Positions 13,774 to 64,000 of a DNA stretch of 64,000 bases are shown piece after piece. Position 1 is the first letter of the stretch; each line of letters starts with the position of its first letter. A model generated the notes under the pieces. That model was not told where the DNA came from and did no database searches. It saw only the letters and a program-made list of their open reading frames with translations. The DNA comes from Nannochloropsis oceanica. Lineage: Eukaryota; Sar; Eustigmatophyceae; Eustigmatales; Monodopsidaceae. The stretch spans positions 1,111,001 through 1,175,000 of the forward strand of contig CP038132.1 in NCBI GenBank assembly GCA_004519485.1, in the 5' to 3' direction. The position numbers and the translations under genes are program-made.

Positions 13774-13856
13774 TCTTTATCTTTCATTGAATGTAAGACG
13801 AGAAGTTGGAGATCAAGGAAAATTATAAACTTTCTCTTTGAAATCGAGATGCAAAT

Positions 13857-19792: not shown

Positions 19793-19956
19793 AGAGTGCT
19801 GTCAGGGTGAGAGAGAGAACACCGGTACGATTCGTCGTTCCACTTTTGGGCTACCAAGGTCTGTGCAGAGTGATGGCCTGGGACGTTTTTTCTGCCTCTT
19901 CGCATCCATATGCCTGTACTATGCCATGCCTCAACACCATCATTTTCCCGCTCATT
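19793..19956 (-). repeat. Inverted fragment of the 17966-18850 gene at the copy-1 junction
   Basis: Reverse complement of about 18656-18816, with only a few differences. It begins within a few bases of the right boundary of duplication copy 1 and shares a short agag overlap with it. This is the signature of template switching or inversion during the event that made or resolved the duplication. Copy 2 lacks it. Confidence 0.9.
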
Positions 19957-21371: not shown

Positions 21372-22550
21372 ATGGAGAGCAAAACAATACATTTATTGGG
21401 AGCCATGATTTTGTTAACGTACATTCTATTTAAATGGACGTTATTGACTACCAGCACTAATGGGAGCCCCATGGGCCAACATGAGAACAGAATGTACTAT
21501 ATAGATGATGGTGGTTCTGATGCCCTTGAGACCAAACGCCGTTTTCAAGATTCAGGAATCAACACCTATCTCTCTATTCTAGAAGAGGTCCTTCAACCTA
21601 AAATCGACCAAATAGTCCTGGTCTGCTTTTATCAATTTGGTAGTTGTGGGGGTATAGGTGACCGGATAAGGGGTATCCCCTATGCTGTAGCGCTTGCTCG
21701 TCTGTCTGGGCGCCAGCTCATTCTTCACCGCTCTCTACTTGAAAATGTCCCCGTTGGTGAGAATTTGACTCTCGACCGCCACCATCGCTTTGTCGATTTT
21801 AGCTGCACAAACGAGAATGTGGAAAAACTGATGAAATCAGATGCTGAAATTATTTCCATCACTGTCAATTGTCGTCACCCGCTGGATCCCTCTCTCTTTT
21901 CATTGCAACGTTCCCAGCTTATCGAATTGCAAACCATCTTTGAAGAATGTTCTGTTTCATATCTCTGCGGGGCTGCTGCTGTTCACCAAGCCAGTGTCTT
22001 CCAAGATGGACTTAATATTGCAAGACGTCTGGTGGCTGCCATGCCAATGTGGCCGATTCGGAATTATACTGCCTTGCATATCCGTGCAGGAGGCTCCAAT
22101 ATCACGATCGACAACACCTACGCAGTTAAAGCCGTAGATTGGGAGGATGGCTTCGCGTCAGATGTTCCCCAAAACTGGATTGATGTGTTCAAGGAATCAG
22201 CATCATCTATCCATTGTGATAAACACCTTGCAATTGTATCCGACTCTATTCGTTTAGTGTCGGAATTGCAGTTTAATGCTGGAGATTGGCTGATGATGAC
22301 ACGATGCTGCAGCCAGCCTCTTCACAGGGATCGCACGCGTCGTCAAGAATTCTTCCTTCAAGAAGTCATTGATCTATTTATTCTGGCTCGTTCTCAGAAA
22401 ATTATTGCAGGTTATGGAGGATTTGCGGTGCTAGGACGCTATTGGTTGGGTAGAGATGGCCCAGAAATGAAGGTAGTTGTAAGTAAAGAGGACATTCGAA
22501 GCCAAATGAATATGATTCGACTAGAAAGTGGTTGTAAATCGAAGAATTAG
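21372..22550 (+). CDS. Fucosyltransferase-like protein (GT11/GT37-type)
   Basis: A 392-residue uninterrupted frame with an N-terminal anchor (LLGAMILLTYILFKWTLL, residues 8-25). The lumenal part opens with VLVCFYQFGSCGGIGDRIRG, where GGIGDRIRG at 93-101 is the glycine/arginine loop characteristic of the fucosyltransferase GT-B fold, followed by ARLSGRQLILHRSLLEN. ALHIRAGG at 234-241 matches the H-x-R GDP-fucose motif. The C-terminal FFLQEVIDLFILARSQKIIAG and GGFAVLGRYW match the family's last block. Expected location is the Golgi lumen, with GDP-fucose as donor; the acceptor is unknown. It differs clearly from the nine-exon enzyme at 11812-13773. A paralogue fragment with SCGGIGDRVRGIPFA lies at the right end of the window. 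The gene appears intact and intronless. Confidence 0.82.
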   Translation: MESKTIHLLGAMILLTYILFKWTLLTTSTNGSPMGQHENRMYYIDDGGSDALETKRRFQDSGINTYLSILEEVLQPKIDQIVLVCFYQFGSCGGIGDRIRGIPYAVALARLSGRQLILHRSLLENVPVGENLTLDRHHRFVDFSCTNENVEKLMKSDAEIISITVNCRHPLDPSLFSLQRSQLIELQTIFEECSVSYLCGAAAVHQASVFQDGLNIARRLVAAMPMWPIRNYTALHIRAGGSNITIDNTYAVKAVDWEDGFASDVPQNWIDVFKESASSIHCDKHLAIVSDSIRLVSELQFNAGDWLMMTRCCSQPLHRDRTRRQEFFLQEVIDLFILARSQKIIAGYGGFAVLGRYWLGRDGPEMKVVVSKEDIRSQMNMIRLESGCKSKN

Positions 22551-28682: not shown

Positions 28683-28955
28683 ACGGTCTGCAAATATTTC
28701 AAGAAATGAGTGTAAATCCTATGACTAGTGGGTGCAAGGACTATGAAACGGAAGACGGCGTTGATGATCACGGTGAAGACTCTCAAGACCGTGCGCCTCT
28801 TGTTTTCAAGGATTCACGCACAAATTCAGCCTCAAATCATCCTTTTTACAAGGTGGAATTTTCGTTTTTGGCATTGGCATTAGTACACGTGTTGCTCGCA
28901 CTACCGTATCGCTGCACTATAGCTATAATCTTGACGCGAAACGTCGAGATATATA

Positions 28956-29665
28956 ATGGGAATCAATACTTTGAAACTAATTGTGACACGTAATGTTTAC
29001 GTGATCATTTGTGCAATTTATTTCATCTTGGTTGCTTTACACCTACAACCACAACGCCACACCTTCTCGAGGGAGAAAAATGACATTGCCATGGCCCACT
29101 TGAAAGGAAAATGCACCACTGATAGCAGATTGAATGCATGGACCGATAAAATATCCTGTCTTGTCACTCAAGATACTATTTGGGAAGAGTGGAGGCTGTG
29201 TCAATCAATGGCCTTATCTAAAGTATCTAACAGCGATACATTCGATGAGTTCATTGTACGGAATGGGGCTCGCCTTCCTTGGAATCTGCATTCCAACCAC
29301 ACTGCCGTGTTACTTGAATTTCGAGACTTTCAATCAAGAATTAATTTAATCATCAACAATATGATAATGAATTTACCCGTACTCTGGCGAGTGCAAGTGC
29401 TCGGTGGGGACGCTGTGTGCCTCTTGATGCGTCGTCTCTTTCCACATAAAATTGCGGCAGGTAAAGTTGTGGTGACTCATATCGACAAGGACAATGTAGA
29501 GCAGGTACGACCTATAACTCAGTAGGCTTTATTTTTTAGGGTCCGATAGTACTTTGACATTCCTCATTTTCCCCATCCTTGGCTGCATAGAGCAGGATTA
29601 GCGAGATATTGACAGATCCCGCCTTTTATAATTATCTGCTAGGAAACACTTGGCTTTTCTTCCAG
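28956..29665 (+). pseudogene. DUF5672-like glycosyltransferase fragment, copy 2
   Basis: Same two exons as copy 1 (exon 2 at 29591-29665). The first ATG of copy 1 is ACG here (28941-28943), so the frame would start five codons later at MGINTLKLIVTRN, still before the anchor. Trp6 of that start is replaced by Leu. The 3' half is missing exactly as in copy 1. Confidence 0.62.
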
Positions 29666-30048
29666 GTAACAGTCAAATATCGATTGCTGATGATCGCTCG
29701 AAATCCCAAAAAAATAAAAAGAGCAAAAATGTACATTAACTTTTTGTATAATCCGTACTTGTGAGGCGAAATGAGTCACGCGTCCTCGCTTGTATCTAGG
29801 GTATTCTTTTTTGGAGTGTTGACCGTGGCCTGAATTTGCAGTCAAACTGTCGATTAATCAAGAGGATTTGAACCCGGCTGCCTGTGAAAAATTCCTTGAT
29901 GTGATTTAGCTGCCCAGTACCACTTACGCACCATGAAGAAATAGAGGAAGAAGGCACATATCAGTGATAATTGCCAGTGTCCCATAGTGGTCTATCTTAC
30001 AACGACTTTTCCCCCATCATTTTTTCCTCCATTCTCCCGGCTCCAAAT

Positions 30049-32010
30049 CTATGGAAGCAGCGTTTTCTTTTCACCGTCTGTTTTTCGTATTTCATCGATC
30101 AATCTATTCCAGTTGGAACCAGTAGTCTACACAAAAGCTTTGCAGTGTGGATGCACGCCTAATATCAAATTGGCCACAGAAATACTATTTCAAATACAAG
30201 ATAAGAGGGGAAGGGGAGGGGAGGAGAAAGGAGCGGAGACTTAGTAATACCTCTTGCCTCCCAGTGTGTGTGGGTTTGCTTCCTGTAGGCACACTCACCT
30301 GCCGAATAATCCGGGACCTATATTTCTGGCGATTCCACCAGGACTTATGTCGTCAGACCGCCTCTCATACCTGTAGACCACAACAAAGGAAAGAATAATT
30401 TGCATTTGTCTGAGTAAATTTGATTCTGGAATGAAAAGACTATTACCTTGTGTAGTAGAAAGTGAAATTCATGTGGTCGTAACGACCGCGGGCGATATCA
30501 TCGATTATGTCAGGATCATCGGTGGACAGAAATATACTTTGGCTTAGAGACAAGCTGGTGTCGTTCCTAGTAAGTCTCGCAGCAGCCTCAAGATATTCTT
30601 CCATAGGATGTAGCCTATCCGTGTAAAGAGTATGTCACATTGTGTTGTTCTCTCTATAGGTAAAGAGAAACGAAAGAGCAAGAATAGCCCATGTGCCATA
30701 CTCACGTCATCTCTTGGAATTTATCGCCATGGCGAATATGGATACATATTGCATCATCGGGGGGAGGTTGCCTGGAGGCGTTCCAACTAGTAGAAGATGG
30801 ATGTCTAGGAATTGACGGCAAATTGTAAGAGCAATATTTTGAACAATCCTATGTCAGATTGAGAAATCGACCTCACCTGACCAAGTCTTGCTCAAAATAG
30901 TGTCTTGCCCAAGCAAAAAGTCTGTCAGAAGGCCGTGCTAAGTACCTAAATCATAAATCGCATAGATTTTGGAATAGCTTAATCTTGATACAGACAAATC
31001 GGTGAAGGAAAGTGAGGAAGACGTGCAGCGTTTGATTACCTTGTTGTTTGTGCCCTCCACCACGAGATGCCTTTTTCCGGCCAGTCGGACTGACTGGGAA
31101 TAAGACCTCTGTCCAAATCAAAACAGCTCGGGGCCAGCAGGAACTTGTCATCCACAAGGTCACGTGAAGTATCATCATACCGTTTGGTGACGACATCTAT
31201 GCTGTATGCCATGTACTGTTATAGGCCGTAGTTCAGAGAAAATATTGATTGAAGATATAAGTAAAAGAGTACATGCAAAAATACAGACGTGGCATCTTGA
31301 AAGCGGTCTGAAAAAACAATCAGGAGTCAAAAGTTCATGGCAAACATGCTCAGATGTGTATCGCCAGTTGCTGTGTTTGGTTAAGGAAAGATGAAATATG
31401 GTTTGAATCGCGACTGAATAACGATTGACTCCTCCCATAACACTTACGTCTGCGGATGGTAGAGCAGGGTGCGATTGTGCTGCATGGCAAAGCCAATCAT
31501 AAGACCTGGAGTTGTGTGTGTGCCCGAGAGATTAGATAAATCGATGACGCTGTCCTTTCAAATGGGTATATTGTCTACTTACCAAGCGTATGAAGGTCAG
31601 AACCCATGCCGTAATTGTTGAGGTTGTACAAAAAGTATTTTCCACTTTCGCAGTCCGGCGGATTCTGGCTCTCTTTGATTCGTCGCTGGACCACTGCGGT
31701 TTCGGTATCATACCCTATATTAAAGCGCGATTAGAAAATGTGCTTGGTCGCTCTATTAAAAGTCCGCCACACCAACAACCTTAATTATATACATCTTCTT
31801 ACCTTGAGGAGAGAGGGCCCATAATTCGAGAGGAGAAGGGCCCGCCTTCAACTTATACTCGTGGGGACTAATGGACGCCTTTCTCCATGCCTTGAGGGAA
31901 ATATTTTCCTTTGAGCAGCAATATAAAAATGCTCCGATCAGTAGTAGCAGGACAGTGTGCAAAATAGAAGATGAGAGTCGGAGGCCTGAAGTCACTTGCC
32001 ATGTTTCCAT
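30049..32010 (-). pseudogene. Fucosyltransferase-like gene, copy 2, with premature stop
   Basis: Exon structure is identical to copy 1 shifted by 18237. One base, A at 30129 instead of G at 11892, turns the CAG codon of AFVQTTGSNWN into TAG in the last exon. This removes about 26 residues including the conserved S-N-W-x-R-L-I-D-E block. Another difference (near 30677) is intronic. Because the stop is in the final exon, the transcript might escape nonsense-mediated decay, but the loss of a conserved block makes activity doubtful. Confidence 0.75.
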
Positions 32011-32093
32011 TCTTTATCTTTCATTGAATGTAAGACGAGAAGTTGGAGATCAAGGAAAATTATAAACTTTCTCTTTGAAATCGAGATGCAAAT

Positions 32094-33187
32094 CACACGT
32101 CCGACTATTTCTGGACGAATAAGGCCCTGTCCAGAAAATTATGCGTTACTTTGTCTAATTCGCCTATATTTGATATAAATCATCACTTCGTACACATTTT
32201 GTGGCGGCGGACGAAGTTATGCCGTCACTTCGTACACAAAATCATGGGCAGCACAAAGTGACGAGGGTAGCTTCGTACATGATTTGTGGACCCTCACGAA
32301 GTTACTTCACCACTCTGTATTTAATCTGCGCACCACCATGAAGCGGAAAGGAGTAATTCGTCACAACGACAGATTCTAGCATGAAGTCAGACGAATAAAT
32401 CCGTTGCCACGAAGTGGGTTAATGGTCTGTGCAAGTCTGCAGGAGCGCAAGTACGCCGCCTCGTGAAAAATGAATTCTATTTGTCCCGCACGTACAGCTA
32501 TAGCACGCGTCATGTCAGTGACCGACGAGAATGCTCTTCTTCCTGGTCTTGGTCTCTCTTCTCATGAGGAGGAGGAAGAGGAGATGGAGCTCCATTTCCT
32601 CCATCACGACGAAGAACCACAAGAGGAGGACGAAAACGACTTCCAAGGTTTCGACCTCGAAGTTGAGGACGACAAGATTAATGATAACAACAGCTCCATC
32701 ACCAGCGACAGTGATGCCATTGCCATGGCCACAGCGGAAACAACTTCTGACACTGGTCCATTCATTCCACGCCCTGAAGAAGTAATGTCTGACTTCGTAC
32801 ATGAAATCCACAACGTCTGACTTCGTACATGAAATCCACAACCTGGTAACGCCCCTACGAAGGAGTGCCGGTAACCCGCACATTAAGATAAGTCATTGCA
32901 ATTCTTTGTCAGCAAGTTGTCAAATTCACGTATGATACCCGGCGGCCGGCATAACGACACATTTTCGCGCGCGAATCCACCACGTGTGGCCTAAACTTTG
33001 TACAGAAGCCTGAACTTCGTACACGAAATCCTCGTTCTGACGGAGTAAATGCCATCACCTTGTAGACAAAATCCATGCCCTGACAGAGTATATGCCTGTA
33101 CTTTCTACCTGAAACCCACACACTGACGAAGTAATGCCTGTACTTTGTACACGATCACACGACAGGACGAATAACCTACAAAGTCGT
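32094..33187 (+). mobile_element. hAT-type element fragment, copy 2
   Basis: Counterpart of 13857-14950, with the same left terminus, subterminal CTTCGTACA array and acidic frame (32470-32820), and the same right truncation. Confidence 0.65.
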
Positions 33188-33849
33188 AAGAGCGCATACC
33201 CACTTGCTGACAATGCACTGAGTAGGATAGCTGCGCTCTTCGCCCTTTCTAATAATTTCGAGTGCATTACTTCTTTTGGGCAGGATTCTGTAACAGCTGC
33301 CAATGGCGTTTTGTCAAACACCGTACTCATTGATGACAAGACACTCCAAATTCGATTTCTCAATACTGGCATTCGTTCGTCCGTTTACTCTTTCAGCCAA
33401 CACTCTTCTTGACCATCTCAGCCCCCTACATTTGGTTCCTGAAGAGAAGATTTTTACGGCATCCATATTACCAAGCCCTGCACTCGCTAACTTGAGTTAA
33501 ACTCAGCACGACTACCTCCATGAATTCACAAAAGACATTTGGATTTGACGACATGTGATAGTCGGACACCGAGAAGCAGGAATTTAACATGCTTCTAGTT
33601 CAGCATTTATATCTTTCCCCACAGGACGATAAGCGACTGACTACGAAATGTTGGTAGTCGTCCAATGTGTGGTTACACGTGACATTGCTGATAGTCCGAT
33701 CACCCATGAGAAAAGAATTTAAGGGCAATTCTTGTTCCACGAGGCGTATTTAATTGAGTCGGTTCTCATGCTTGACTCATGCAATTTGCCTAAAAAATCA
33801 CCGCAACGATACTGCATGGGATGCCACAGATGATGCATTATAGCTTACG
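33188..33849. other. No gene; hAT end remnant at 33620-33677
   Basis: Copy of 14951-15612. Confidence 0.5.
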
Positions 33850-35537
33850 GTTTCCAGAGACCTGATAAATCCACATTTCTAGGACAGCGAACATTAGAAA
33901 TAGGAATGGGATCCTCTGTAAAGCTTTTAGTGGCGGTTAGCGGTGAAATTTCAATTTTACCTCCGTATTCATATTGATCCGTGATATGGTGGAGGTCGTC
34001 AGAAGGAATAACATCTGTATTAACGATAAAAGCTCTCCAGTTTTTGTGGTTCAATGCAAGCAATGTGTTAAGAGTTTGATGAATATTGTAGATGCCTGTT
34101 GCATGGCCTTCATAGGTGCGGACTATTATGCTCACTCTATCTTGTCCCGCCCTTTGGCTCACAGGCATACCAGGGTTCTCATCCAAAAGCACAGAGCTCA
34201 AGTAACCATTAGACATGGTTTTTGACACATGGCCACGCTGTTCGTCAAAGACAGCTTTTTGGACGGCTTCAAGCCATTGCCTACCCCATTCGATGCTGAG
34301 CTCAATTGCAGCTCCCTGCCCCCCGTCATTCCATGCATTTAAAAATACAAATCCACCAGGCTCCGTCCTCGCCAAATTTTGACGTAGCCAGAAATACAAG
34401 TGTGACGGATGAAACGGATAGATTGTGGCACCATCGGGTCGGGGAATCTAGGCGAATTATCAAAGGCGGCGGGACGCCGTACTATCTGCCTTTTTTTGGG
34501 TGCTCACAAGGTTGTTCATAGTGAAACCTGACGTCACCTTGTAGCTTGGGAAAAACTCGACGAGAGAATCCATTCCTGGCTGCAATTTCAAAGAAGAGGG
34601 TTCATTCCATCCTACTCCATTTATTTGTATCACGTTGAGGCCCCTTAAATTTGCATTCCTCGCCGATATTCTCCACAGACTAATCATTTGTTCCAAATTG
34701 GGAATGTTATCCGCTCTGTAAATTAGGATGACGGGTAGACCCTTGCATTTCAAATAATTTTTACGTAGGGCAAGAGCCAATTAAAGTGAGGCTCCCAAGT
34801 TTCTCGGTCGTAAGTCTGATTGAGGAGAATCTCTGATCCGTCATTTCCATTCCACCGTCGTGTCCAAGGCTCGTTTGCCCAAGTTAAACAGAAGGGAATA
34901 TTAGGGTAGCCGTCTGAGAGCATCAACTCCAATGGCTTCGTCATTATAGCTTTGGTGCCATACCAGTAATGGTATATAGCAAATCCATGAATAATATACT
35001 TTTTGCTAATTTCCCCTGGAAACGCCGTTGGCTAGGAGATATCAAGTTATAGAAGCCCATTCGTTCGGCGGGCCTAATAATGGCCTGTCCGTACTGGTTT
35101 TGATGAACCTTTGCGACAAATGAGAGATCTGTAAAGCCTTTCCCCAAAAAAATGTTGTTCTCCTCAAGCTCGTGGAACTGAGGGAAGTAGACAGCAATTA
35201 CTTTCTTTTCTTGTCCTACAACCAAATTGGGCGTATGAGTCCTTTTAAGAATTTAGGCCGATAGAGGGAGTTTTCCCTCTTTCAAATGAGTCATTTCCCC
35301 AATGAGAAGCAAGGCGAAGAAATGTAACACAAATACATATGTCATCACAAATTTGGATCGCCACATGATGAAGGCAAATAACAATAGCCCGGCAAGTTTA
35401 ATTTTTGAAGTAGTTCGACTTTGATAATGTGATTTTGAGACTTGGACGACCGAGTTCGAACTTGAAGCGAAATGTGTGTATGTGTGGTGGGTATGTTGTA
35501 ATCGATCGCAACACCTCCTTAGAATCATCGATCGCAA
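33850..35537 (-). pseudogene. WbsX-type / GT2-like fusion, broken (copy 2)
   Basis: Counterpart of 15613-17300 with the same stop (35253-35255), the same two T5-run losses (35000-35004 and 34758-34762) and the same shift near 34437. No difference from copy 1 was noticed in the coding part, so the damage is shared. Confidence 0.75.
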
Positions 35538-36202
35538 GTCTTATCCAAAAGCAAAGATCTCATGATCGAGCCGCCGTATCACCATCCCCTACCATATGGG
35601 GATGATGAATCAGAAAGATTCAGAGCCTTCAATGCTCTTCGTCACTCCTTCATCACATTAACTCTGTTCAATCGTGATTCCATTGTATTCAGACAGACAC
35701 ATTCTGGATTTAATTGCTCATGAGTTACATGTTTTTACTGTTGATGACAGACGTGACGATTATCACACCGCGCGGCCTTGCCGCTTGTGCAGCCTTATCT
35801 CAAGTTGTCCGGGTTAGCAGTAATAGAGACCGAAAAAGTAATCTGGAATGACATCAGGGATTTAAAGAACCTATGGCTCGACCATGAGTGACTTAAGTGG
35901 GACTACATACATGTGTGTTATTCCAATTTTGGTCATTCTTTGCGAATGAACGAAGGGTAAAAGCGTCCGTGCTCACAAAAATTGAAATGACACAGCTTCT
36001 TATCCTGCCCTTGCGCCCCGATCATTCAGTACTTTTTTATCTCTCACCTTTCAATCTATTCCATACACTCTATTCCTCCTGGAGCCCTTGAACACCCTGG
36101 GAAATGCTAATTTTAAACGAACTTTTCTCAAAATTTTTTTCGATCTCAGGCCTCTGAACTCGGATTTCACGAACTCAACCATTCCCTGGAAGCAAGAAAG
36201 AT
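35538..36202. other. Intergenic, copy of 17301-17965
   Basis: One base differs from copy 1 (aatgctctt for aaagctctt near 35632). No gene seen. Confidence 0.4.
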
Positions 36203-37087
36203 ATGACACGATCATGGGATAATGCTCTGATGACGATTGTCTTCATCACCATAATATTCGCTGTGGAGCTGTGGAGGTCTCCGGATACAAGCATGCTAAA
36301 TTTGCAGAGTCGCTTAGGTGAAAAGCCCTGCCTTCAAGAATCGATTCTGTGCGATGCTTCTATGGATTATTCCTTCTTGATAAAATCCAATCCAGAGGCT
36401 GCGGCTTTATGGAGGCCTTATCGTGTGACATTACCCAGAAATGATGATATTGCAGATATCCCTTTCGCAGAGGGGGCGCAGGATGCGTTTACTGTCCGCG
36501 TCTGCGCCTCGGAGGGCGAGATATATCTTCACGTTACTCACCACGAGCTACTTGACTGCATGGTCCCAGGCGCCGCCACGATTGAAGGGATGGGACTGTC
36601 TCGCACAGATGCCGCCAAGGACTACATCGAAGTGCTGTTAGATGGCCCTGAACGACGTTTGCGGCGCTTAGACTTCATGTCACATACTGTGCCTCCAAAG
36701 GCGATAGATCCTTTAATAAGTGACTGTGTATTTACATTACGATTACCCATATATTTAAGTGGAATGTACCGAGTCCAAATTATCGTGGTCCATAGTGACA
36801 TTGCATTAACAGGCATTGAGCCATATCGCAATTACGTCCTCTGGGACCGTCTTCACATTTTGTCGGCCAAAAGTCTTGACCAAATTTCTTCCGAGCGGAA
36901 AAATGATGGTGTTGAGGCATGGCATAGTACAGGCATATGGATACGAAGAGGCAGGAAAAACGTCCCAGGCCATCACTCTGCACAGACCTTGGTAGCCCAA
37001 AAGTGGAACGACGAATCGTACCGGTGTTCTCTCTCTTACCCTGACAGCACTCTCCAAGGCTTTCTACCACCTCACCATGTCCGGTGA
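36203..37087 (+). CDS. Membrane-anchored protein of unknown function (copy 2)
   Basis: Same 294-residue frame as 17966-18850, with one replacement (Met to Ile in GIWMRRGRK). The anchor and the SYPDSTLQGF tail are unchanged. It remains open in both copies, in contrast to its neighbours, which weakly favours function. Confidence 0.6.
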   Translation: MTRSWDNALMTIVFITIIFAVELWRSPDTSMLNLQSRLGEKPCLQESILCDASMDYSFLIKSNPEAAALWRPYRVTLPRNDDIADIPFAEGAQDAFTVRVCASEGEIYLHVTHHELLDCMVPGAATIEGMGLSRTDAAKDYIEVLLDGPERRLRRLDFMSHTVPPKAIDPLISDCVFTLRLPIYLSGMYRVQIIVVHSDIALTGIEPYRNYVLWDRLHILSAKSLDQISSERKNDGVEAWHSTGIWIRRGRKNVPGHHSAQTLVAQKWNDESYRCSLSYPDSTLQGFLPPHHVR

Positions 37088-37977
37088 AGCGCGTCTTCTC
37101 GGCCCAAATTTTCCCAGCTGCCTTTCTTTGGCCACACTCCAATCAATCCGGGCGCCCATCGACATGGCAGTCGCAGCCGCCAAGACCAAAAAGCTGGACG
37201 ACATCGGCTCCCTCTAGGTCGGCCTGCTCACGGCGCGAACGGACGCCGCTCCCATGGGCAGCCTCACTCGGGACCCTACCCCCAAACCAAACACCAAAAA
37301 CAGTCCATTCTCTTTTTGGATACATCCCGTAGAACATTGAAATCACGTGCTTCAGATAGACGAATCCTTGTCGTGGTTTACTTCCTGAAGTCCACAGACT
37401 TTTATTGTGTGAGTTAGTGATTCAATTATCGACTTATCATAGGGAAGGAGACATCGAATCCCAGTCTTTTTTTCCTAATCAAAATCACACTCCCAAGCGA
37501 CAGCCAAAAGCAAACGGTGGTGAGCTCAATTGCGGTCTTCCTGGAGAAGGTGCCAGCATGACCTGGAAGGGTGATATCATCACGGATACATTCAATTTAC
37601 CTAACCTCAAAGTTAAAACCCCTTCTGGCCAAACAACGGCAGAACAAGAACAGCTGTCCATAAGTCGTTGATCTAGGAGAAAATAGAGTTTATTGGCGTC
37701 AACCTCAGAGTTGTCTAAGTGTGCCGTGTTTGCAGCCACAGAAGAAGTACCGATGAAATATTCGCTTAGCCAGATTCTAGGCACAATGGCTAGCTGATAA
37801 TCTAATATGACGCATCGACTGGAGTGGCAACTATGTGGGTCACAAGAAGGCCAGGATAGGTGCTGCTGAGTGACATTGATGCCTGATATAACACGTGCCC
37901 GTACCACAAACTGCGACAAGTGGATGGGATGTCTGACACGCCCACACAGGCATTTCATGTGAAGGGACTGATTAAAA

Positions 37978-38897
37978 ATGTTGTGCTTAGCAAACTCCTG
38001 GAGCTTTGGTGGGATCCCGCGTCAAGAAAAGACGGGGGAGGGGCAGTTATCGCGGCAGAAGACGTTGGTAGAATTTAGACCCCAAAAACCTCGTTATGCT
38101 ACGTTCTTTGGTGAAGATGAAGAGGATGATGGTAAACGAGGAACGAGAGAGGGAAGTGGTCTACGCTCGGTTGATTGGACGGAGCACCAACTGAATGAGT
38201 ACTTGGCGTTGTGCGCTGGGAAGTGCGAAAAAGTAGATTCAGCTGAAAGGATGGATTGGGATGAAGTGCCTCAATGGTGGTTGAAGACTGGATGCGGGAT
38301 GTTTCCGGCGCTCGGCAAAGTCTTTCAAAGTCTCCTGGCGATGCCAGGGGGGGCAACCGCGCTTGAACGGGATTTCAGCATTGCCAGCAATCTCCTGACC
38401 GTGCATCGTGCGAGACTGGATCCGGCCTACGTGGGGATGAACATGCTCCTTCACATGAATATTGACAAGATTCCGCCTGTCTCGCAAGTCCCCCAGCTCT
38501 CTGATAAGGAAGTACGAGATGCGATTCCGAAGCGCTTGCAAAATGGAGAGGATTTTAAAAAGTGTTCACGCTTAGACGTGTCGGATTTTTTGCAGCGGAT
38601 GGCACTGTGAGAGGCCAGACGTGGGACGGCGCGATCGGTAAGGGAGAATGAAAAGGGGAGTCGAGGGAGACGCGGTGAGGAAGAGGCGGATAATGGCGGG
38701 GAAAAGGGTGCAGAAGAATATAGAAATGACAGTGGGAGTGATGGTGAGGATGAGAACACGCCTTTGGTCAGCAGCGACAGTGACGAGGACAACACGAGAG
38801 ACGACCAACAGGCGACAGAGGCCACATTTTTTTTCCCGAAGAGGATTTGGGGCCTACAGTTGATAATGGGAATGATATGGAAGTCATTGAAGTGTAA
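37978..38897 (+). pseudogene. hAT transposase C-terminal half
   Basis: The frame to 38610 contains VPQWWLKTGCGMFPALGKVF, LLAMPGGATALERDFSIASN and LLTVHRARLDPAYVGMNMLL, the W-W ... F-P-x-L ... E-R-x-F-S dimerisation domain. A highly acidic tail follows in another frame and ends near 38897 (DSGSDGEDENTPLVSSDSDE). The first 18 codons of the open frame come from the end of the segmental duplication, so the annotated start is an artefact of the junction. The N-terminal half of the transposase is absent. Confidence 0.8.
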
Positions 38898-43856: not shown

Positions 43857-45395
43857 TTAAATGGTGTTTTCAATCAGTAAACCTTGGAGCCAGAGTTTAC
43901 TTAGCTCGTCATACTGTTGGCCAAGCTTTCCTATATGATGAACAAACCTTGTCCCCTGATGAATGTAAGCCGTTCGATTCACTGGGGAGCAGAAAATATC
44001 AAAGAGAGGTAATGTTTGGTAGTCCGGCAAGGGTTTGTCCAAAAATAGGTGACTTCGATTACCTATCAAAACTGCGCGTGATGGATTCCTGACATTGTAA
44101 TGTTCCCCAGGGAGGAATTCTGACTTTGCTAATCCTCCTAGCGACTGGAGGTTCGGGTAGATCATGTAGGCGCCGCGACCATATGCATAGTCAACCATGA
44201 AGCGTTTCCAGGAGCGTGCCCAAGTGTTGGTCGTGCTGTGGGGCAACCGCAAATGTGGGTTTCCTCTAGCTCCCGCCTTTGTCTCATGAAAAAATGGGGA
44301 AGCACCTCTGACCGCAACAAAGGACAAAAACCGCTTCCAGTGCTCTCCAAAATAAACAGGTCCCCATGATGACGGTACGCCATGCAAAAAAACGGGCGAT
44401 TCCGGTGACACGTGATCTCCTGGCAGCCAAGTGTGCCACGAGGGATCTTGCGTGCTGATCTCGTCAAAGAGGATGGGGGACAGCGAAATACCTAAAAGTG
44501 ACGGGTCGCGGTTGGAGGCCTTCCAGAGATCATAACTCTCCAGAACATGCAGAATCCATTGAAAGTACAAAGGGGAAACGTCCATGTCGTCTTCCAGGGC
44601 AATCATAATGTCGTCTGGGCTCGGATTCTGCCATGCACCTAACCATGATCTCTTTAGGCCCACATGTCCTGATCTGATGTGCAAGAGTTTGGGGCCATAC
44701 GACCATTTGAAGTCGACAATGAGTTGCTCTACAGCTCTATTCTCTTGCCAGGTGATAGTGGTGTTGTCGCGTGGTCTATCTAGGTGAATGACCAAAGGCA
44801 AATCTTTGTCATACGAGGAATAGTCGGAGGTCGTCAATTTGTTTAACAGGTCTGCGGTTGAATCGGCTCTGGCGAACGTAAAGAGATGAATGGTAATGCA
44901 GGGTTTGATTTGATTGCATACTGACGCCAGCCTTTTCGGAAGGCTCGCATCTTCAGGAGTTTGACTCACTTCCCCGTGCACGTTGAACTCATGTGTACTG
45001 CTTTCAGGCTTGCTTTGGTTACGACTTTTCGTTGTTCCTTCTACGAAATGGGCGCCACTCCCCTGTTTCCAGTTGTCGTGGCCACCACCATGCTGAGACA
45101 TCGAAGAGAATGAGAACTGGATAACCGCCACTGACAGGACAGTTGCAATCAATCCTGCCTGGTACATTTGCCAAAAGGTACAGGGTCGTCTTTGTCGCCT
45201 GATCATATCCTGAACGCGCAGGTTTTGGGAAAAATACAAAGATGGTGTATGGTCAGTACTGTGCATGAAATGATTGTGGGGAACCGCATCGGTTGACTTG
45301 TGTGGCGATGTGTGATCCCACCCAATCCTACCTAATAAATGCTGATATGGTACCCAAATAATTGCGTCACAGAAAAAACTATGAGATGAGACCAA
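43857..45395 (-). CDS. GT-A-fold glycosyltransferase with an EDD motif
   Basis: A single minus-strand frame of 512 codons. The better start is probably Met64 at 45206 (MIRRQRRPCTFWQMYQ), because a signal anchor (AGLIATVLSVAVIQFSF) follows at once and gives a normal type II layout of about 448 residues. The lumenal domain begins CITIHLFTFARADST, then LVIHLDRP, SGHVGLKRSWLGAW, and DIMIALEDDMDVSP with the metal-binding EDD at 268-270 of the long form. VPSSWGPVYFGEHWKRF, NTWARSWKRFMVDYAYGRGAY and FLPGEHYNVRNPS follow. This block order is shared by a family of GT2-related proteins in algae and plants of uncertain specificity. The frame is intact. Expected role: transfer of a sugar from a nucleotide donor in the Golgi. 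Donor and acceptor are unknown. Confidence 0.8.
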   Translation of the reverse strand: MVSSHSFFCDAIIWVPYQHLLGRIGWDHTSPHKSTDAVPHNHFMHSTDHTPSLYFSQNLRVQDMIRRQRRPCTFWQMYQAGLIATVLSVAVIQFSFSSMSQHGGGHDNWKQGSGAHFVEGTTKSRNQSKPESSTHEFNVHGEVSQTPEDASLPKRLASVCNQIKPCITIHLFTFARADSTADLLNKLTTSDYSSYDKDLPLVIHLDRPRDNTTITWQENRAVEQLIVDFKWSYGPKLLHIRSGHVGLKRSWLGAWQNPSPDDIMIALEDDMDVSPLYFQWILHVLESYDLWKASNRDPSLLGISLSPILFDEISTQDPSWHTWLPGDHVSPESPVFLHGVPSSWGPVYFGEHWKRFLSFVAVRGASPFFHETKAGARGNPHLRLPHSTTNTWARSWKRFMVDYAYGRGAYMIYPNLQSLGGLAKSEFLPGEHYNVRNPSRAVLIGNRSHLFLDKPLPDYQTLPLFDIFCSPVNRTAYIHQGTRFVHHIGKLGQQYDELSKLWLQGLLIENTI

Positions 45396-48382: not shown

Positions 48383-49599
48383 TGATGGCGATCAAGGTTG
48401 CTTTCTGGCTGTATAGTTCTTGTTTCCATCTTGTACATGACAAGTGAGTCCAAATTCCTCAGCGAAGGAAGGTTCAGTGAGTCATATGTTAAGAGCGCCT
48501 CTTCGAAGCTCAATGAACAAATCAAGACACTTCAAGAAAAGGTGGATATTCTCCAGAAGAGGTACGTGTGTTTGAAATGATTGAAATGACATGCTCTTCT
48601 TGTCATAGTCTATTCAAAGTCCCGCGTACATTGAACCATTCACTTGCGCGCTCATCTAGGTTTTGGCTCGAGCCCCTCGAACCCATTAGGCATTACCGCG
48701 GAAATTATTACCTAGGCAAGACAGCCGACGTCGAGGATAAGGACCAGGTACGTAAAAAGACGGGGGGCCTACGGCATCTACTTTTGAGCTTACGATTGCT
48801 CTTTTTCTTCCCATCCCGTTCTCTCCAATTAATGAATTTCATGTTTTCCTACATAGGCGACACCGTTCCTGCTGGCTAATTTTGTCGACGCCTCGGACAG
48901 AAAATTATTTGAGCGTAGAATTTATATCGACTTGGGCATCAAGGACTTTGCCAGCAGCCTTTGCTGGATGATGCAACATTATCCTGTCAAGTTCGACGTC
49001 ATGCACGGATTTGGATGCCAAACAGATCTCACTAACGTGACGGCGTTGAAAGGTCATATAGATAGCTGTATCAGTGGAACCGCGGCCGAAAAGATGGGCT
49101 ACACCACAGAAGGGATGATGGACATGCTCCACATCTACCACAACTTCATTGGTCTGGATGAAGACTCGAAGACATCACCGCAAACGCGTGGCCTTGGCCA
49201 ATTTCTAAAAGACATTGATGTACAGGAAGACGACTTTGTGGTGCTCAAGATGGACGTGGAAGGAATCGAGTTCGATCTTTTGGAGCGCATCATGGCCGAT
49301 GGCACTTATAAGCTCATTGACGAGGTACGCAAGTTTGCAAAAGAAAAGCTGAAGAACTCACCATCGTGATTAGATTAGAGATTCAGGCAGAAGGTTAACC
49401 ACCAGGCCCGATAATGATAATCAGAATCATCACCATCCGTTTATAATAATCCCGACAACAGATATTCGTTGAGATCCATTACGCTCACCCGGACATGCGA
49501 CCATTCGGGTGGGATAAGTTTGAACACACCCGCAGCGATGCGCAAGCTCTGTTCAACAAGTCGCGGGACATGGGCATTTATATTCATCCGTGGCCATAG
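48383..49599 (+). CDS. FkbM-type SAM methyltransferase with N-terminal anchor, four exons
   Basis: Exon 1 ends at about 48562 (LQEKVDILQKR then GTACGT). Exon 2 is 48660-48747, exon 3 is 48857-49324 and exon 4 is 49462-49599; junction phases agree. Exon 1 carries a hydrophobic anchor (LLSGCIVLVSILYM) and a coiled stem. Exons 2-4 carry FWLEPLEPIRHYRGNYY, IYIDLGIKDFASSLCWMM, a SAM-site-like D-x-G, DDFVVLKMDVEGIEFDLLER, a hallmark of FkbM-type enzymes, and FVEIHYAHPDMRPFGW. Such enzymes O-methylate sugars or glycolipids. The ATG at 48383 is out of frame with the anchor by one base near 48396, so either the true start differs, an upstream exon exists, or there is a one-base lesion. A 5' remnant of a relative lies at 5700-5920. 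Confidence 0.75.
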
Positions 49600-50229: not shown

Positions 50230-52080
50230 CCCCCTATGACGCTTGGAGGCCGAGGATTGCGTCCTCGAGAGAGCAGGTAGCGACCGCAGGGAGCTGCCCC
50301 CCCCATGAGTGAAGGAAGAGGGCTAGTGCTGCACGGTCTTCAGGTATCTGCTCGCTTGTGATAATGCCATGGGGATTTCCTCGCCCTGGGCGTTGGGACG
50401 GTCCCGGGAGTAGATACGCCAAGCGTCTGAACGCCAACGCCCGAGACGCTGAATAGTGAATGGGCGGCATTCGGCGTAGAAGAGGCCCGTGGTGCCGCCT
50501 GAGCGGAAAGAGTGGCCGGAGTAGTCTTGGGCAGGGATTTGGGCGCGGGATAGTCGGCCGCGGAAGGCGTCGACGAATATGCGCTTGGGAAGAGGTGCTC
50601 TTTGGCCAAGTCAGTCTGTCGGAAATAGCGGGGTCGAGGCTGGCAGCGACGGGGGATTGTAACCGAGCGCTGAGGCTACGGACGAGAGGTAGCGCCTGAG
50701 GTATGTGATTGCGCAGAGGCGGTTCGGCGCCTGATATTCTTGGATGTAAAGGAGTTCCGGGGGCCCTGTTTTGTTGGCCTTGGACTTGCGTATTGTGACG
50801 TCCAGTTGGGTGTGGGAGGGATTAGTCCAAGCGACGTCGCCCACTGTCAGTTGGACCAACTCGCAACCTCGGAGGAGGCAGTCGTGTGCGAGTGTAGCCA
50901 TGGTGAGGAGCTGGAGGTCGTGGAAGTCGGAGGTATCCGCGGCGCGGGCCATGTGCTGTAGGACCTCGAGAGTAACTGGCAGTTTCCGACGCGGAGGGTC
51001 GAGGTGTCGCTTCTCCAGCGCGCGCTGGAGATCGCGGATGAAGAAGTCGGAGGAGGCGGAGAGCCAGGGAAAACCGCGCTCGTCGGAGTCGCGCTTGATG
51101 AGGCTCTTGATTGTCTTAAGGCTGAATGCGAAGTTGCCGCGTAGGCAGTAGAAAGTGAAGTAGGAGCCGAGGGATTCGAAAAAGACTGGCCAGGGGGCAA
51201 TGTCCCATGTTCGGCACTGCCGTTCGTAGCAACGGACGGCGGAAACCAGGAAGGCGCGGGAGGATGACTCGAGCGCTTGAGCCCGAAAGTGGTGGGACAG
51301 GCGCAGAGCTGCGTGGTACGGTATATGTTGATGGTCTGGACGCGGGGTGGGCGGCATGGCCTGTGAGAGAAGTAGGCGAAGCGGTAAGGTGTAGTGGTGC
51401 GCGTGAGATGGGTGTGCGGCTAGCTGTTGGGCATGAGGACGGCTAGGCGGCCCAGGAGAGATTGAGGGGATTTCTCTCGCGGCAGTAGGTCGAGGAGATG
51501 GTTGCGCGTGCGCGGAACCCAATCAGCGACCAAGAAAATCCCAAACCGTTCGGCCACCTCGAAGATGTGAGCCAAGAGCTGGAAAGATTGGAGGGATTTG
51601 CTGTGCCCTTTGTTGATGGCGAATGCGCTGCCAAGATTGTCTGTAGTGACCGCGAGCAGACCTCCGCGGGAACCGGGGGCCAGGAGATGAACGGCGAGCA
51701 GCACAGGAACTAGCTCGTGGTAGGAGGAGCTGTGAGGTTGAAAGTTGTGTGGCGGCGAGGCGGAGGAAGTGGGCCAGGTGCCGCGGAAGATGGAAGGGGG
51801 CTGGATCGCCGGGGACGATGACGAGGCCGAAGCCGTCTGTGCCCGAAACATCGGAGAAAATGCGGGCAGTGATCGGCGACGAGCCCTCCGACGGCCAGAA
51901 GGGGGCCCAGAGGGGCGTGCGCTGGCCGGAGATGAATCTAGCTCGAAACCAGCGCATGGAGTCGTGCTGGGCGGGCGTGATGGGCTGGAGGTGGCTGCGG
52001 GAGCGGTGATATTGTACCTCGTGCCGGAGCCGAGCCAGGTGAGGTCGACCTGCTTGCATCGGAGAGGAGGGACATGATGA
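50230..52080 (-). mobile_element. DIRS-like tyrosine-recombinase retroelement fossil
   Basis: Two minus-strand coding parts are recognisable in the order expected for DIRS-type elements. An RNase H-like part (about 52080-51420) has ELVPVLLAVHLLAP, VTTDNLGSAFAINKG and ADWVPRTRNHLLDLLPRE. A tyrosine recombinase part (about 51520-50300) has MATLAHDCLLRGCELVQLTV (the Arg of box I) and further on the H-x-x-R box and a tyrosine region. No reverse transcriptase or terminal repeats were found next to it. The segment is strikingly GC-rich compared with its flanks. It looks incomplete and broken in a few places; age cannot be fixed. Confidence 0.65.
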
Positions 52081-52090
52081 AGTAGTTGAA

Positions 52091-53013
52091 ATGCAGGAGG
52101 AGGGAGAGGACGTAGAGAATGAAGAGGGCAAACCACGCTTAACTGCGGAGGATATCCGGGATGACAGGGGGGAAGCGGAGGGGCATCAATTATTTTCCCA
52201 CTGCTTTGCTGACTTGCAGACGCCTGAGGGGGGGCTCCTCTCCAAATATTGGCACGATAAATTCAAATACAAGAATAACGAAATTACAGAAATGAGGAGG
52301 AGATGCGTCAACCTCAAAAGGTGTGTATGTCTTCCTCTATTTCCTTTTAATTTTTGGGAGAGATTGAGTTTTTCTTATTCCACCCCCCACTTCCCATATT
52401 CCCACTTTCCTCCCACAGGCTGAGAGAGGTGAACAAAGCCTTGGAAGTATGTGAGTGGATCATCGAGGAACAAGACACCTTGGCAACGATGAAGAATGAG
52501 GTGTATGCGGCGGCGAGCCGAGCGGCATCGAAGACGACAGCGGCTCGCCTTAAACGCTCAGAAGGGGACATGGAGATCTGGATGAAGGAGCAGCGCAGGC
52601 ATTATGCCTGCATCACCGACACAGAATTAACATTGGAGATTACGAGAGTGAGGAGGAGAAGGAGGTAAAGCAAGATACCATGCGGAAGACGAACGAAACC
52701 CCAATAACTGAGCAAGCCCGGAAGGAGAAAGAGTACAACGCTTCCCTTCAGGAAACCCGCCAGCGGGTAGATTGCCTCGAGGCCCAAATTCTGGAGGTGG
52801 GGAGGAAACGGGATGTGTGGAAGCAAAAAAACATGAATTGCAAAAGGGAGAGCAAAGATCTTCAACTATAGGTGCACCCTTTGAAGGGTATGAAGCAGAA
52901 GGCGGCGACTTACCGGGAAAAGTGCATGCTGCTAGCCCAGGAAAATAAGAACCACAAGGCTGCCCTCGACAATGCCCACCGCTACGGATGGCGCCTTGCA
53001 TCGCCGCAGTAGT
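52091..53013 (+). pseudogene. Coiled-coil protein gene, decayed member of a dispersed family
   Basis: Exon 1 (52091-52320) encodes an acidic start, then LTAEDIRDDRGEAEG, LFSHCFADLQTPEGGLLSKY and a helix ending EMRRRCVNLKR at a GT donor. Exon 2 begins at 52419 in phase with LREVNKALEVCEWIIEEQD and continues as Lys/Glu/Ala-rich coiled coil. A shift near 52635 and an in-frame TAG near 52869-52871 interrupt later coil segments (TYREKCMLLAQENKNHKAAL), which run to the stop at 53011-53013. Homologous pieces lie at 55130-55500 (exons 1 and 2), 53227-53397 and 20721-20846 (a later module). The function is unknown; the copy number and setting suggest a multicopy family possibly spread with transposons. 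Confidence 0.6.
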
Positions 53014-59981: not shown

Positions 59982-62900
59982 ATGGTTCCGAGATCACCAC
60001 ATCGTCTGCCATCTCGGCAAACCACAGCTGTGATTCTTTTACTCCATTTCCTGGTCGTTCTATATATTCAGTTCTGTTTTATGGCCACTCGCCGGGAACA
60101 ACATCGCGACCATCTGACTTTGAATTCGTCTAAAATCGGGCCGCTAAAAATTGCATTTCATGTACTCGCAACGAGACAAAGTGTGGTCGAGTACCTGGCC
60201 AGTCATTCTGAGGAATGGTTCGCTGAGCTAAGGGCGGTTGGAAAGCTCATCTTTACAGTTGGCGCAGCTACTGAGGCTCTTGATCCCCGTAACGAGGAGG
60301 CGCTGGTGAAAATTGCATCGCTGTATCCGGATAGCATTTTCGTACAGCATGTGAAGGCTAATGATATGGAGTATCCACCAATTGCTAAGACAATCCAAGC
60401 ATTTGAGTTATTGAGCAGTAAGCTAGCGCATGAGTATGACTTCATCTACAATTTAGACGATGATACGCATTTTCATCCTTTGCGCATGGCTGCACTTCTC
60501 ATGCATCGGAATTCCAAGGAACCTTTGTACATGGGTCGACCGCAGCATTCCTGCAAATGCTTTTCAGGTCGATCTCAGGAAGCAAATTGCACTGAAGCAG
60601 CAGGCACAACCTATTGTAGCGGTGCTGGGTACGCCTTTAGCAGCTCCACCCTGAAGGCCATGACAGAGACCTGGTTAAAATGCTGGACCGACCATCAGGA
60701 CACGTACACAAACCTATGTCAATCAAGTGACATGTTCATTGGCTACTGCCTGGACAAATATGCGCATACGACATGTTCAGCAGCCTCCTTTTCGGGGGTC
60801 ATACGACCACCATCGCCTGCATTAGAGAGCGCCGCTATGCAGGCTTACATTGAAGATGGTGTCCAGGTGGCATTGTCAACCTCCGTTGAAGTCCCGACAC
60901 ATGGGGTCTCTTGGGGCCCACTGCAGCCAAATGGATGGTCACTCCATATACACACTTTACTGTGTCAAGACCCCTCCCATGTGGGCGGGATAGGTCAGCG
61001 TCAACACATCCCCAACACGCACCTTTTTGATGAAAGCGACAACCGCTTGTGTGCTTATATGCATCCGATGAAGGTGAACGGCAGGTTGAGCGCGCCACAT
61101 TTCCGTTATGCAAGGTTTTTGATGAACAAGAAGGTTGAAACATCTCTATCATCATCAGTTGAAATCGGAAAGCACGGTAAAACTCCCGACCGTCGGTGTC
61201 GTCTTGCTATTAATATCCAAAGTGCCCCATCCCAGGTGGAAATGCGCGACCTACTCCGATCCACGTGGCTGCAAGTTGCTCAAGCTCTTGGAGAGGACGT
61301 GGTTCGTTTCTATTTCGTACTTGGCCATCCTCGGGAGCCTCTGGCTCCTCATATTCAATTGGAACTTGAACGAGAAATGCGGACCTCCCGCGACATGCTG
61401 GTTTTGAACTTTACTGAATGTTACCATTGCATCTACAACAAACTTTTAACATGGTACGAATGGGCCATTGATAATACAGAATGCGATTATATCTTAAAAG
61501 TGGATGACGATGCCTACCTGCGCCTGATCCCACTCTTGAACTATCTATCGCGTTTTGGAGCCGGCGCTGCTGAAAACATATATTTTGGCATGACGTTTCA
61601 GGGCTGGGACAAGTTTAACACGTCAGGAGCCTCACCTGTGGTGAAGAATCCCAACAACAAGTGGTACTTGTACGACTTATATCCACATGAATACTTGCCG
61701 CCCTACGTAACTGGAAATGTGCTGGGTTTGTCACGCAACCTCGTTGAGCACGTACTGCGACGCAGCCAGAGGGACCAGCAAAATTGGCGTATAGATGACA
61801 CGGCTGTTGGTATCTTTATCTCGGAACTCGTGCAAAATACTTCCAACGGCATGCCCATTGTCTATGCCAATACCGATGAGTACTGGAAGGCTGACCAAAT
61901 GTGCACCGAGAATTCCATTTGGGACAGCCCGAACTTTTCTTATGGTTTTAACATGTACGATCGATACGAAGACGATTTGGATGGAATTTTTTGCGCGCGC
62001 ACCGATCACAGTGGGTGGCCAAATGAGCAGGCACGTAACGTCAACAAGAAAGAGTTGATGCTCTATACAAGCGAATCGCGAGCTACACTCCGGTATGCCT
62101 CCCCACCTTGGACACCGGGTTTCAATGACAGAAACAAATATGGCCACCAAATTGTCGCCGACTGGCTGGCTGTTAAAAATGGTAACCTTTATGGAGGGGT
62201 AGATGTGCTCATTGACGCGTCGAAGTATGATCTTGACACTTTCAATGACTTCCATATGGTCCAAAAACGAGCTGTCGCGTACGGCGTGGCTCATGGCATA
62301 TGTTCAAGGGATGGTGCAGACGTGAAAGCCATATGGAAACAAACTGTACGATTTGGAGGTTACCTTGCCACCGCCACGTGCAGGAAGGAGACTAATACAG
62401 TCTATTCACTCTTCTTACCGCATGGCATGTCTCACTCCTCGGCGGTATTACACCATCAGGTTTCCAATGACTATTTAGCAATAGTCATTCCGGCCGGTTG
62501 TTTCATCGAGGAGCTGATAGCATTTGTCCACCATTTGAACGATGCACTTGTTGGCATTGGCGGTTATATCCGTGTAGTCATTGGCTGGGGCGAGTGTAAT
62601 GGGGAGGGTGAAGCCTTAGTTCATCAGTCAGAATCAGCAGCATCCAATGGAAGCCATTTATTGAAGGATGCGCCTTCAATCCATGAGCGTATCACCGACA
62701 TTACAGGTCCCAGTGTTGCCGTCAAGTTGATTCACACCCATCAGCCGTTTTCAAGATCTTCCACGCTTGCAAGCGCCTTGCAGAAGACTTGGCCAAAGGA
62801 ACTCGTGGTTATACTTGACGTCGACATGCGCGTTAGTCCAACATTTTTTAGAACGATCAAAGGGGTTGTCGTCCAACGTCAAACCATCTATTTTCCCATC

Positions 62901-63326
62901 CCTTTCTCCAGATACAACCCGACCCTTATTGACCGTTGGTTGGACCTTCAGTCTGTTGAAAATGTCACTCGTCCTTATTTTCACGAGACGTTTACCATCT
63001 CAAAAAGCACTGGCCACTGGGTTCAATATGGCTACGGTATGGTCGCCGCGTATGCCAGCGATTTACGTACGCTCGAAGGTTACGATGTATCGAATAAGGA
63101 ATGGGGTATGGAAGATGTGGACTTATACAAATCAGCCGTGGCCTCCCATCTCGAAGTTCTGCGATTGACGGATCTGAATCTTGTCCACATATACCACCCC
63201 AAAAGCTGTAAACGGTTTTGTGATAATGCCCTGCCCGGCCGTTATAGAATGTGCCTGGGGGCAAAGTGGTCCACTGAAGGCACAAACATCATGCTGGGTC
63301 TTCTACTTGAAGATAAAATCATGTAG
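59982..63326 (+). CDS. Triple-module glycosyltransferase: GT31-like + GT31 + GT7
   Basis: An uninterrupted 1114-residue frame. The N-terminus has a signal anchor (residues 15-34). Module 1, about residues 50-270, is Fringe/C1GalT-like: YDFIYNLDDDTHFHP (DDD 159-161) and CSGAGYAFSSSTL. Module 2, about 400-640, is a beta-1,3-galactosyltransferase-type GT31: MRDLLRSTWLQ, YILKVDDDAYLR (DDD 508-510), YVTGNVLGLSRNL and RIDDTAVGIF (DD 605-606). Module 3, about 830-1114, is GT7/CHGN: HQPFSRSSTLASALQ, VVILDVDMRVSP (DVD 946-948), FPIPFSRYNP, WGMEDVDLY from 1041 and HIYHPKSCKRF. Animal chondroitin synthases pair one GT31 with one GT7 in under 900 residues. The extra N-terminal module is therefore unusual, with all three metal-binding motifs intact. 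I infer a bifunctional or trifunctional Golgi polymerase of a repeating polysaccharide. Sugars are unknown. The gene at 3956 matches module 3 only. Confidence 0.88.
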   Translation: MVPRSPHRLPSRQTTAVILLLHFLVVLYIQFCFMATRREQHRDHLTLNSSKIGPLKIAFHVLATRQSVVEYLASHSEEWFAELRAVGKLIFTVGAATEALDPRNEEALVKIASLYPDSIFVQHVKANDMEYPPIAKTIQAFELLSSKLAHEYDFIYNLDDDTHFHPLRMAALLMHRNSKEPLYMGRPQHSCKCFSGRSQEANCTEAAGTTYCSGAGYAFSSSTLKAMTETWLKCWTDHQDTYTNLCQSSDMFIGYCLDKYAHTTCSAASFSGVIRPPSPALESAAMQAYIEDGVQVALSTSVEVPTHGVSWGPLQPNGWSLHIHTLLCQDPSHVGGIGQRQHIPNTHLFDESDNRLCAYMHPMKVNGRLSAPHFRYARFLMNKKVETSLSSSVEIGKHGKTPDRRCRLAINIQSAPSQVEMRDLLRSTWLQVAQALGEDVVRFYFVLGHPREPLAPHIQLELEREMRTSRDMLVLNFTECYHCIYNKLLTWYEWAIDNTECDYILKVDDDAYLRLIPLLNYLSRFGAGAAENIYFGMTFQGWDKFNTSGASPVVKNPNNKWYLYDLYPHEYLPPYVTGNVLGLSRNLVEHVLRRSQRDQQNWRIDDTAVGIFISELVQNTSNGMPIVYANTDEYWKADQMCTENSIWDSPNFSYGFNMYDRYEDDLDGIFCARTDHSGWPNEQARNVNKKELMLYTSESRATLRYASPPWTPGFNDRNKYGHQIVADWLAVKNGNLYGGVDVLIDASKYDLDTFNDFHMVQKRAVAYGVAHGICSRDGADVKAIWKQTVRFGGYLATATCRKETNTVYSLFLPHGMSHSSAVLHHQVSNDYLAIVIPAGCFIEELIAFVHHLNDALVGIGGYIRVVIGWGECNGEGEALVHQSESAASNGSHLLKDAPSIHERITDITGPSVAVKLIHTHQPFSRSSTLASALQKTWPKELVVILDVDMRVSPTFFRTIKGVVVQRQTIYFPIPFSRYNPTLIDRWLDLQSVENVTRPYFHETFTISKSTGHWVQYGYGMVAAYASDLRTLEGYDVSNKEWGMEDVDLYKSAVASHLEVLRLTDLNLVHIYHPKSCKRFCDNALPGRYRMCLGAKWSTEGTNIMLGLLLEDKIM

Positions 63327-63605
63327 AGCAAAACAAACCACAAAAACGTCTTTCGCTCATATAGATGTCGGAAACGTGTACGCTGAAGCCATTTCTTCAT
63401 GGCCTGTATGGAATGGATGTGTGTGTAGGAATGTGGTGCATTTCACGTACAAAGGATACCTCATTACACCCTCACAACCCTCACAAGAGACTAGCTACTC
63501 CATAAGGACTTATTTTGTTTCGATTTTTTGCTTTTCACGAGATGACTTCAATATCATGACACTTCGCATGTGTAAATCTCGACAGCGTTTGGGTCCTTGG
63601 AAATA
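63327..63605. other. No gene recognised
   Basis: 3' flank of the large gene; the minus-strand paralogue to the right loses family similarity by about 63606. Confidence 0.4.
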
Positions 63606-64000
63606 ATCCTTGAAAACGTAGTGTTCGTTTGTTGTGGGACTTACGGGCTCTGGGCCGTTCACCAATAAGGACGGATCTAGGATGAGCTGTCGGTCCGCCA
63701 TGGGGGCAAAAGGAATACCCCTCACCCTATCTCCAATCCCGCCACATGAGTCCCGGTTGGAGTAGCATAGAGGGACCAGTTTTCGGTTCTTGGGCTTCTC
63801 AATGTCCCCGAATATTGACAGGAAGTGAGAAATTCCAGACGTATCAAAGTCATTCCCATCTCCTTCTTGGAAAAGAAGATCTTCGTAGATATTCACAGGA
63901 ACCACCAAACAAACACGGTGTTCGAATATTATTAACAATGAGCACGTCAGGATAAGGGCCAGGTACGAGAAGCAACACTCGTTTGGAAATGTTGCCTTAG
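63606..64000 (-). pseudogene. Fucosyltransferase-like paralogue, N-terminal fragment running off the window
   Basis: The minus strand from the window edge reads FSYLALILTCSLLIIFEHRV (anchor), then LVPLCYSNRDSCGGIGDRVR and ADRQLILDPSLL, matching SCGGIGDRIRGIPYA and GRQLILHRSLLEN of the 21372-22550 protein. A few residues around AVALARLSG are shortened to APMADR. After TTNEHYVFKDYF the similarity ends near 63606, before the H-x-R-A-G-G part, so only the first third exists here. The true start may lie beyond 64000. Confidence 0.7.

Follow-up and report, generated by a model that had tools for sequence, protein, structure and literature searches.

Stand-alone enzymes such as B3GALT6, B3GNT2 and B3GALT5 consist of one glycosyltransferase module, and a single module is likewise carried by CSGALNACT. 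The animal chondroitin synthases CHSY1 and CHSY3 combine two, an N-terminal GT31 and a C-terminal GT7 module behind a type II membrane anchor, and human chondroitin is made by such a two-module protein together with a partner (PMC12748766). Both families are inverting and form beta-1,3 and beta-1,4 linkages, respectively, and between GT31 and GT7 the human enzymes have a middle domain whose closest resemblance is to cysteine-protease inhibitors (PMC12748766). Donor-site residues of CHSY3, including the base D342, are named in the same source (PMC12748766).

In algae, GT7 genes of Chondrus were proposed to act in carrageenan synthesis (PMC7359372) and homologs of CHSY and CSGALNACT in Gracilaria changii in that of agar (PMC9127767), while a survey published in 2013 reported GT7 in prasinophytes only, among the green and red algae with genomes sequenced by that time (PMC3797821). 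The accessible portions of the red-algal accounts of GT7 and CHSY-like genes make no mention of a three-module form (PMC7359372; PMC9127767), and the cryptomonad and brown-algal literature, in its accessible text, gives counts of GT7 or GT31 genes and nothing on a GT31-GT31-GT7 arrangement. Three glycosyltransferase domains in one protein are described for A111/114R of chlorovirus PBCV-1, with proposed galactosyl-, xylosyl- and fucosyltransferase domains and an abstract that names neither GT31 nor GT7 (PMC7826918).

In the present study a stretch of 64,000 nucleotides from Nannochloropsis oceanica (contig CP038132.1, positions 1,111,001 to 1,175,000), hereafter the window, was analyzed with regard to a gene that encodes three such modules in one chain (Table 1). 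The preliminary description had claimed an unbroken frame of 1114 codons, and translation of 59982-63326 (+) indeed showed no stop; the sequence of the window is free of N, and the ATG is codon 2 after the in-frame stop. From stop to stop the frame comprises 1115 codons, versus 157-283 (mean 202) for the longest frame on either strand when 30 random sequences were drawn from a first-order Markov model of the window, and a chance open frame was ruled out by this comparison. In successive blocks of about 124 codons across the gene, linkers included, G+C was lowest at codon position 2 in nine of nine (tied in one), which fits a single coding sequence. The 19-residue windows of highest hydrophobicity begin at residues 14-18 of the protein, and this N-terminal stretch fits a signal anchor, which would give the protein a type II Golgi membrane topology. 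The order of its parts, a putative anchor, an N-terminal GT31 and a C-terminal GT7 module, is shared with animal CHSY1 and CHSY3 (PMC12748766).

Table 1. Positions of the three-module gene, its predicted parts and the second GT7 gene in the window.
Feature	Position	Strand	Basis
Three-module glycosyltransferase gene, one frame, 1114 aa	59982-63326	+	Open frame; random-sequence control
Putative signal anchor, about residues 14-36, predicted type II topology	60021-60089	+	Hydrophobicity
Module 1, GT31, residues 51-300, nearest CHSY3 N-terminal module	60132-60881	+	Pfam; CHSY3 alignment
Module 1 DDD, residues 159-161 (CHSY3 D261-D263)	60456-60464	+	CHSY3 alignment
Module 1 putative catalytic base D250 (CHSY3 D342)	60729-60731	+	Alignment; role from PMC12748766
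Module 2, GT31 of beta-3-GalT type, residues 406-615, likely extra module	61197-61826	+	Galactosyl_T 89.9 bits; B3GALT6 E 5.6e-14
Module 2 DDD, residues 508-510	61503-61511	+	Aligned with B3GALT6, B3GNT2
Module 2 putative catalytic base D606	61797-61799	+	Invariant versus B3GALT6, B3GNT2
Possible middle domain, residues 728-815	62163-62426	+	Aligned with GT7 gene 3956-5311; low-confidence model
Module 3, GT7 (CHGN), residues 832-1109	62475-63308	+	CHGN 148.2, Glyco_transf_7C 30.2 bits; CHSY3
Module 3 DVD, residues 946-948 (CHSY3 D718/D720)	62817-62825	+	CHSY3 alignment
Module 3 ED pair E1044/D1045 (CHSY3 E806/D807)	63111-63116	+	CHSY3 alignment
Module 3 H-x-x-H, H1069/H1072 (CHSY3 H831/H834)	63186-63197	+	CHSY3 alignment
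Short GT7 (CHGN) gene with one module, second in the window	3956-5311	+	CHGN 134.6 bits (frame 3899-5308); CHSY3 E 8.8e-20

Searched as a whole against Pfam (cut-offs: Galactosyl_T 23, Fringe 21, CHGN 23, Glyco_transf_7C 23 bits), the protein reached 145 bits with CHGN, 26 with Glyco_transf_7C, and 115 and 35 with Galactosyl_T and Fringe, each of the latter two in two stretches. When the modules were cut out and scanned separately, module 1 (residues 51-300) matched Galactosyl_T with 33.3 and Fringe with 29.8 bits, both above cut-off; module 2 (396-665) passed the cut-off of Galactosyl_T with 89.9 bits, Fringe and CNRIP1 staying below theirs; and module 3 (825-1114) passed those of CHGN (148.2 bits) and Glyco_transf_7C (30.2 bits). 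The pieces between the modules, residues 276-405 and 636-840, yielded no Pfam family match. Together with the matches to PDB sequences given below, these scores bear out the original proposal of GT31, GT31 and GT7 modules in one chain, and the placement of module 1 in a glycosyltransferase family holds.

Less favoured is the earlier view that the N-terminal module, as a Fringe- or C1GalT-like one, is the third. Of the ten PDB sequences listed in a search with the whole protein, those of CHSY3 (9q8z, 9o4g) were matched twice, by residues 126-265 and 910-1108, and B3GALT6, B3GNT2 and B3GALT5, with chains of 278-397 residues, by module 2 only, its span being residues 398-615 and its best match B3GALT6 (E 5.6e-14); the remaining two sequences were of a ribosomal protein (E > 0.6). 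Residues 51-400 alone retrieved two entries of CHSY3 (E 4.3e-4 and 5.2e-4); the only other entry within E 10 was an unrelated phosphatase (E 1.8), so that the N-terminal GT31 of CHSY3 is the sole significant match of module 1 among PDB sequences, where Fringe and C1GalT chains are present too. Taken with the Galactosyl_T and Fringe scores of module 1, which differ little, this leans against the Fringe/C1GalT subgroup. Since modules 1 and 3 match CHSY3 in its order and module 2 matches B3GALT6, the former would be an ordinary chondroitin-synthase pair and module 2, not module 1, the newcomer; this is likely rather than proven, because module 1 matches CHSY3 weakly, with about 22 bits and, in the search by the entire chain, E 2.7e-3. 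A recent internal duplication of one GT31 was rejected, as blastp of module 1 versus module 2 gave no significant similarity (best E 0.5).

The protein is thus probably a CHSY-type synthase with a second GT31 of beta-3-GalT type between its two usual modules. Unlike CHSY1 and CHSY3, with two glycosyltransferase modules, and unlike CSGALNACT1/2, with which and with other Pfam CHGN proteins it shares the GT7 module, it possesses three. In animals, B3GALT6 makes a linker sugar, and the best PDB match of module 2 also suits an unlikely alternative, namely that three transferases were fused for convenience, each adding one defined sugar to a short oligosaccharide, such as a linker or protein-bound glycan, and none polymerising; modules 1 and 3, however, both match one polymerase, CHSY3, in its order. 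The fusion is further favoured by the three-domain A111/114R of PBCV-1, which was proposed to add three sugars of the core (PMC7826918).

Residue equivalences were counted along the CHSY3 alignments (the donor contacts R187, H394 and K397 of CHSY3 fall outside these), and P837 and F841 were placed via the other GT7 gene of the window (3956-5311). In module 1, Y131 and K136 correspond to Y233 and K238 of CHSY3, M129 takes the position of the uracil-side donor contact D231, with D128 adjoining, and Ser 249 stands where CHSY3 carries Glu before D342. In module 2, which aligns with B3GALT6 and B3GNT2 at the DDD and the catalytic Asp, D606 is the kept second D of the IDD motif, and its equivalent is presumably the catalytic base in both enzymes. 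In module 3, P837 and R925 correspond to P626 and R697 of CHSY3, and F841 lies at the donor contact R630. All three acidic motifs were found at the residues initially given for them. The metal-binding and catalytic acids are hence the same as in CHSY3, with which modules 1 and 3 align in order, whereas the equivalents of D231 and R630 are Met and Phe and the middle domain is unrecognisable by sequence. As a DxD motif and a candidate catalytic Asp are kept in each module, all three are, judged from these residues, probably active.

The same residues bear on whether one GT31 might be a non-catalytic scaffold in a two-sugar polymerase, much as the inactive CHPF is for CHSY3 but within one chain. 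Precedents exist in CHPF, the partner of the human enzyme, in which the DxD motif is absent along with the majority of the donor-site residues (PMC12748766), and in C1GALT1C1 (COSMC), a GT31 pseudoenzyme that acts as a scaffold (PMC7185993); module 1, moreover, is the more diverged GT31 (33 versus 90 bits) and is without an equivalent of D231. Nevertheless, the DDD and an Asp at the position of the catalytic base are kept in both GT31 modules, and we regard such a scaffold as improbable, more so than the fusion of three transferases.

As to the middle domain, residues 728-815 are possibly to probably the counterpart of the human one, as suggested by alignment and by a model of low confidence, in which a helix and three strands appear at about residues 751-814, the 10-residue blocks there having pLDDT values of 34-55; residues 633-846 found no significant match among PDB sequences. 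A model of the whole chain from a two-row alignment was discarded (mean pLDDT 33.7), so that the structural comparison covers the C-terminal part, with module 3. Residues 710-1114, modelled from a three-row alignment, reached a mean pLDDT of 49.7 and a pTM of 0.51, with 83 in the best 10-residue block. In a Foldseek search, where sequence letters enter the score in addition to shape, CHSY3 and CHPF, its partner, ranked first for this model (E 5.5e-15 to 4.9e-9) among 139 chains at E up to 0.001, with low TM-scores of 0.36-0.39, and the lower ranks were mostly general GT-A-type folds.

The inserted-GT31 synthase would then be a type II Golgi membrane protein laid out on the chondroitin-synthase plan, with anchor, GT31, middle domain and GT7, and with the second GT31 seated between the first and the middle domain. 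Going by their families, a beta-1,4-linked sugar would come from module 3 and a beta-1,3-linked one from module 1, which corresponds to the glucuronosyl module, and the alternation of the two would extend the chain; module 2 would add a third sugar, beta-1,3-linked, to the chain or its start, whether with each repeat, as a side branch or a single time at the outset. Judged from the chemistry of the two families, this is the likeliest picture. A stronger version, a single-chain synthase whose three active sites alternate between two beta-1,3 transfers and one beta-1,4 transfer, so that a glycosaminoglycan-like chain would either repeat as a trisaccharide or bear single-sugar branches at regular intervals, possibly in a non-animal eukaryote, appears rather doubtful.

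Relatives were sought among viral contigs with the whole protein, with module 3 and with alignments of modules 3 and 2, and none of the candidates (1, 5, 85 and 100, respectively) was confirmed. Bacterial and archaeal genomes, scanned with the module 3 alignment only, gave 70 candidates and one confirmed relative, L001 of Pseudoalteromonas luteoviolacea, which lies in a frame of 238 codons, is 24% identical over part of module 3 and is too distant to inform on origin. Other three-module relatives were thus encountered neither among the viral contigs nor, by module 3, among the bacterial and archaeal genomes. A GT31-GT31-GT7 protein was not found in the accessible text of open papers, so that a printed report may exist elsewhere. 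A111/114R resembles the protein of the window in uniting three glycosyltransferase domains but, in contrast to it, is viral (PMC7826918); as a three-domain viral glycosyltransferase has already been described, any novelty is confined to the combination of GT31, GT31 and GT7 on the chondroitin-synthase plan.

The second GT7 gene of the window, which shares 32% identity with module 3 along 284 residues, is possibly a partner or a paralog of the three-module protein. Further frames with a potential relation to glycans were observed. A frame of 512 codons at 43857-45395 (-) with an EDDMD motif gives, on reading its sequence, the impression of an unassigned glycosyltransferase, with no Pfam match and no significant one among PDB sequences (best E 0.78). 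At 48857-49366, DUF7870 scored 31 bits, its cut-off being 27, while the match to FkbM methyltransferase fell just short of its own. A match to the glycosyltransferase WbsX, likewise below cut-off, was seen in the frame 15611-16210 (-), which recurs at 33848-34447 (-) and of which the first copy was scanned. This frame belongs to both copies of a direct duplication of 9350 bases (10446-19795 versus 28683-38032), gapless, 99.86% identical and with starts 18237 apart, which arose either by segmental duplication not long ago or as an artefact of assembly. Two inverted copies of some 293 bases (6274-6565 / 9703-9995; identity 98%) flank three consecutive frames on the plus strand, the first of which begins inside the left arm and one of which, at 7778-8410, has a weak match to the glycosyltransferase STELLO below cut-off.

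Other features of the window comprise two frames that share an SCGGIGDR motif, at 21372-22550 (+) and 63510-63998 (-), 38% identical over 111 residues and unmatched in Pfam even at E 10, the latter continuing past the window end; a G+C-rich region at 50614-52262 (-), one frame of which matches Phage_integrase below cut-off and the frames of which we take to be perhaps a DIRS-like retrotransposon; the end of a hAT transposase; and imperfect repeat units of 210-215 bases at 113-1479, shortly before subtilase-like frames, where the subtilase frame resumes after an apparent GTAAG...ACAG intron. This intron and the hAT end speak for a eukaryotic source.

A three-module version that arose in nature would reveal how chondroitin synthases gain a step, and with it one could directly test whether the repeat of a sugar chain changes when a third active site is present. 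It is also relevant to the synthesis of sulfated polysaccharides in algae, for which GT7 and chondroitin-synthase-like genes are proposed candidates (PMC7359372; PMC9127767).
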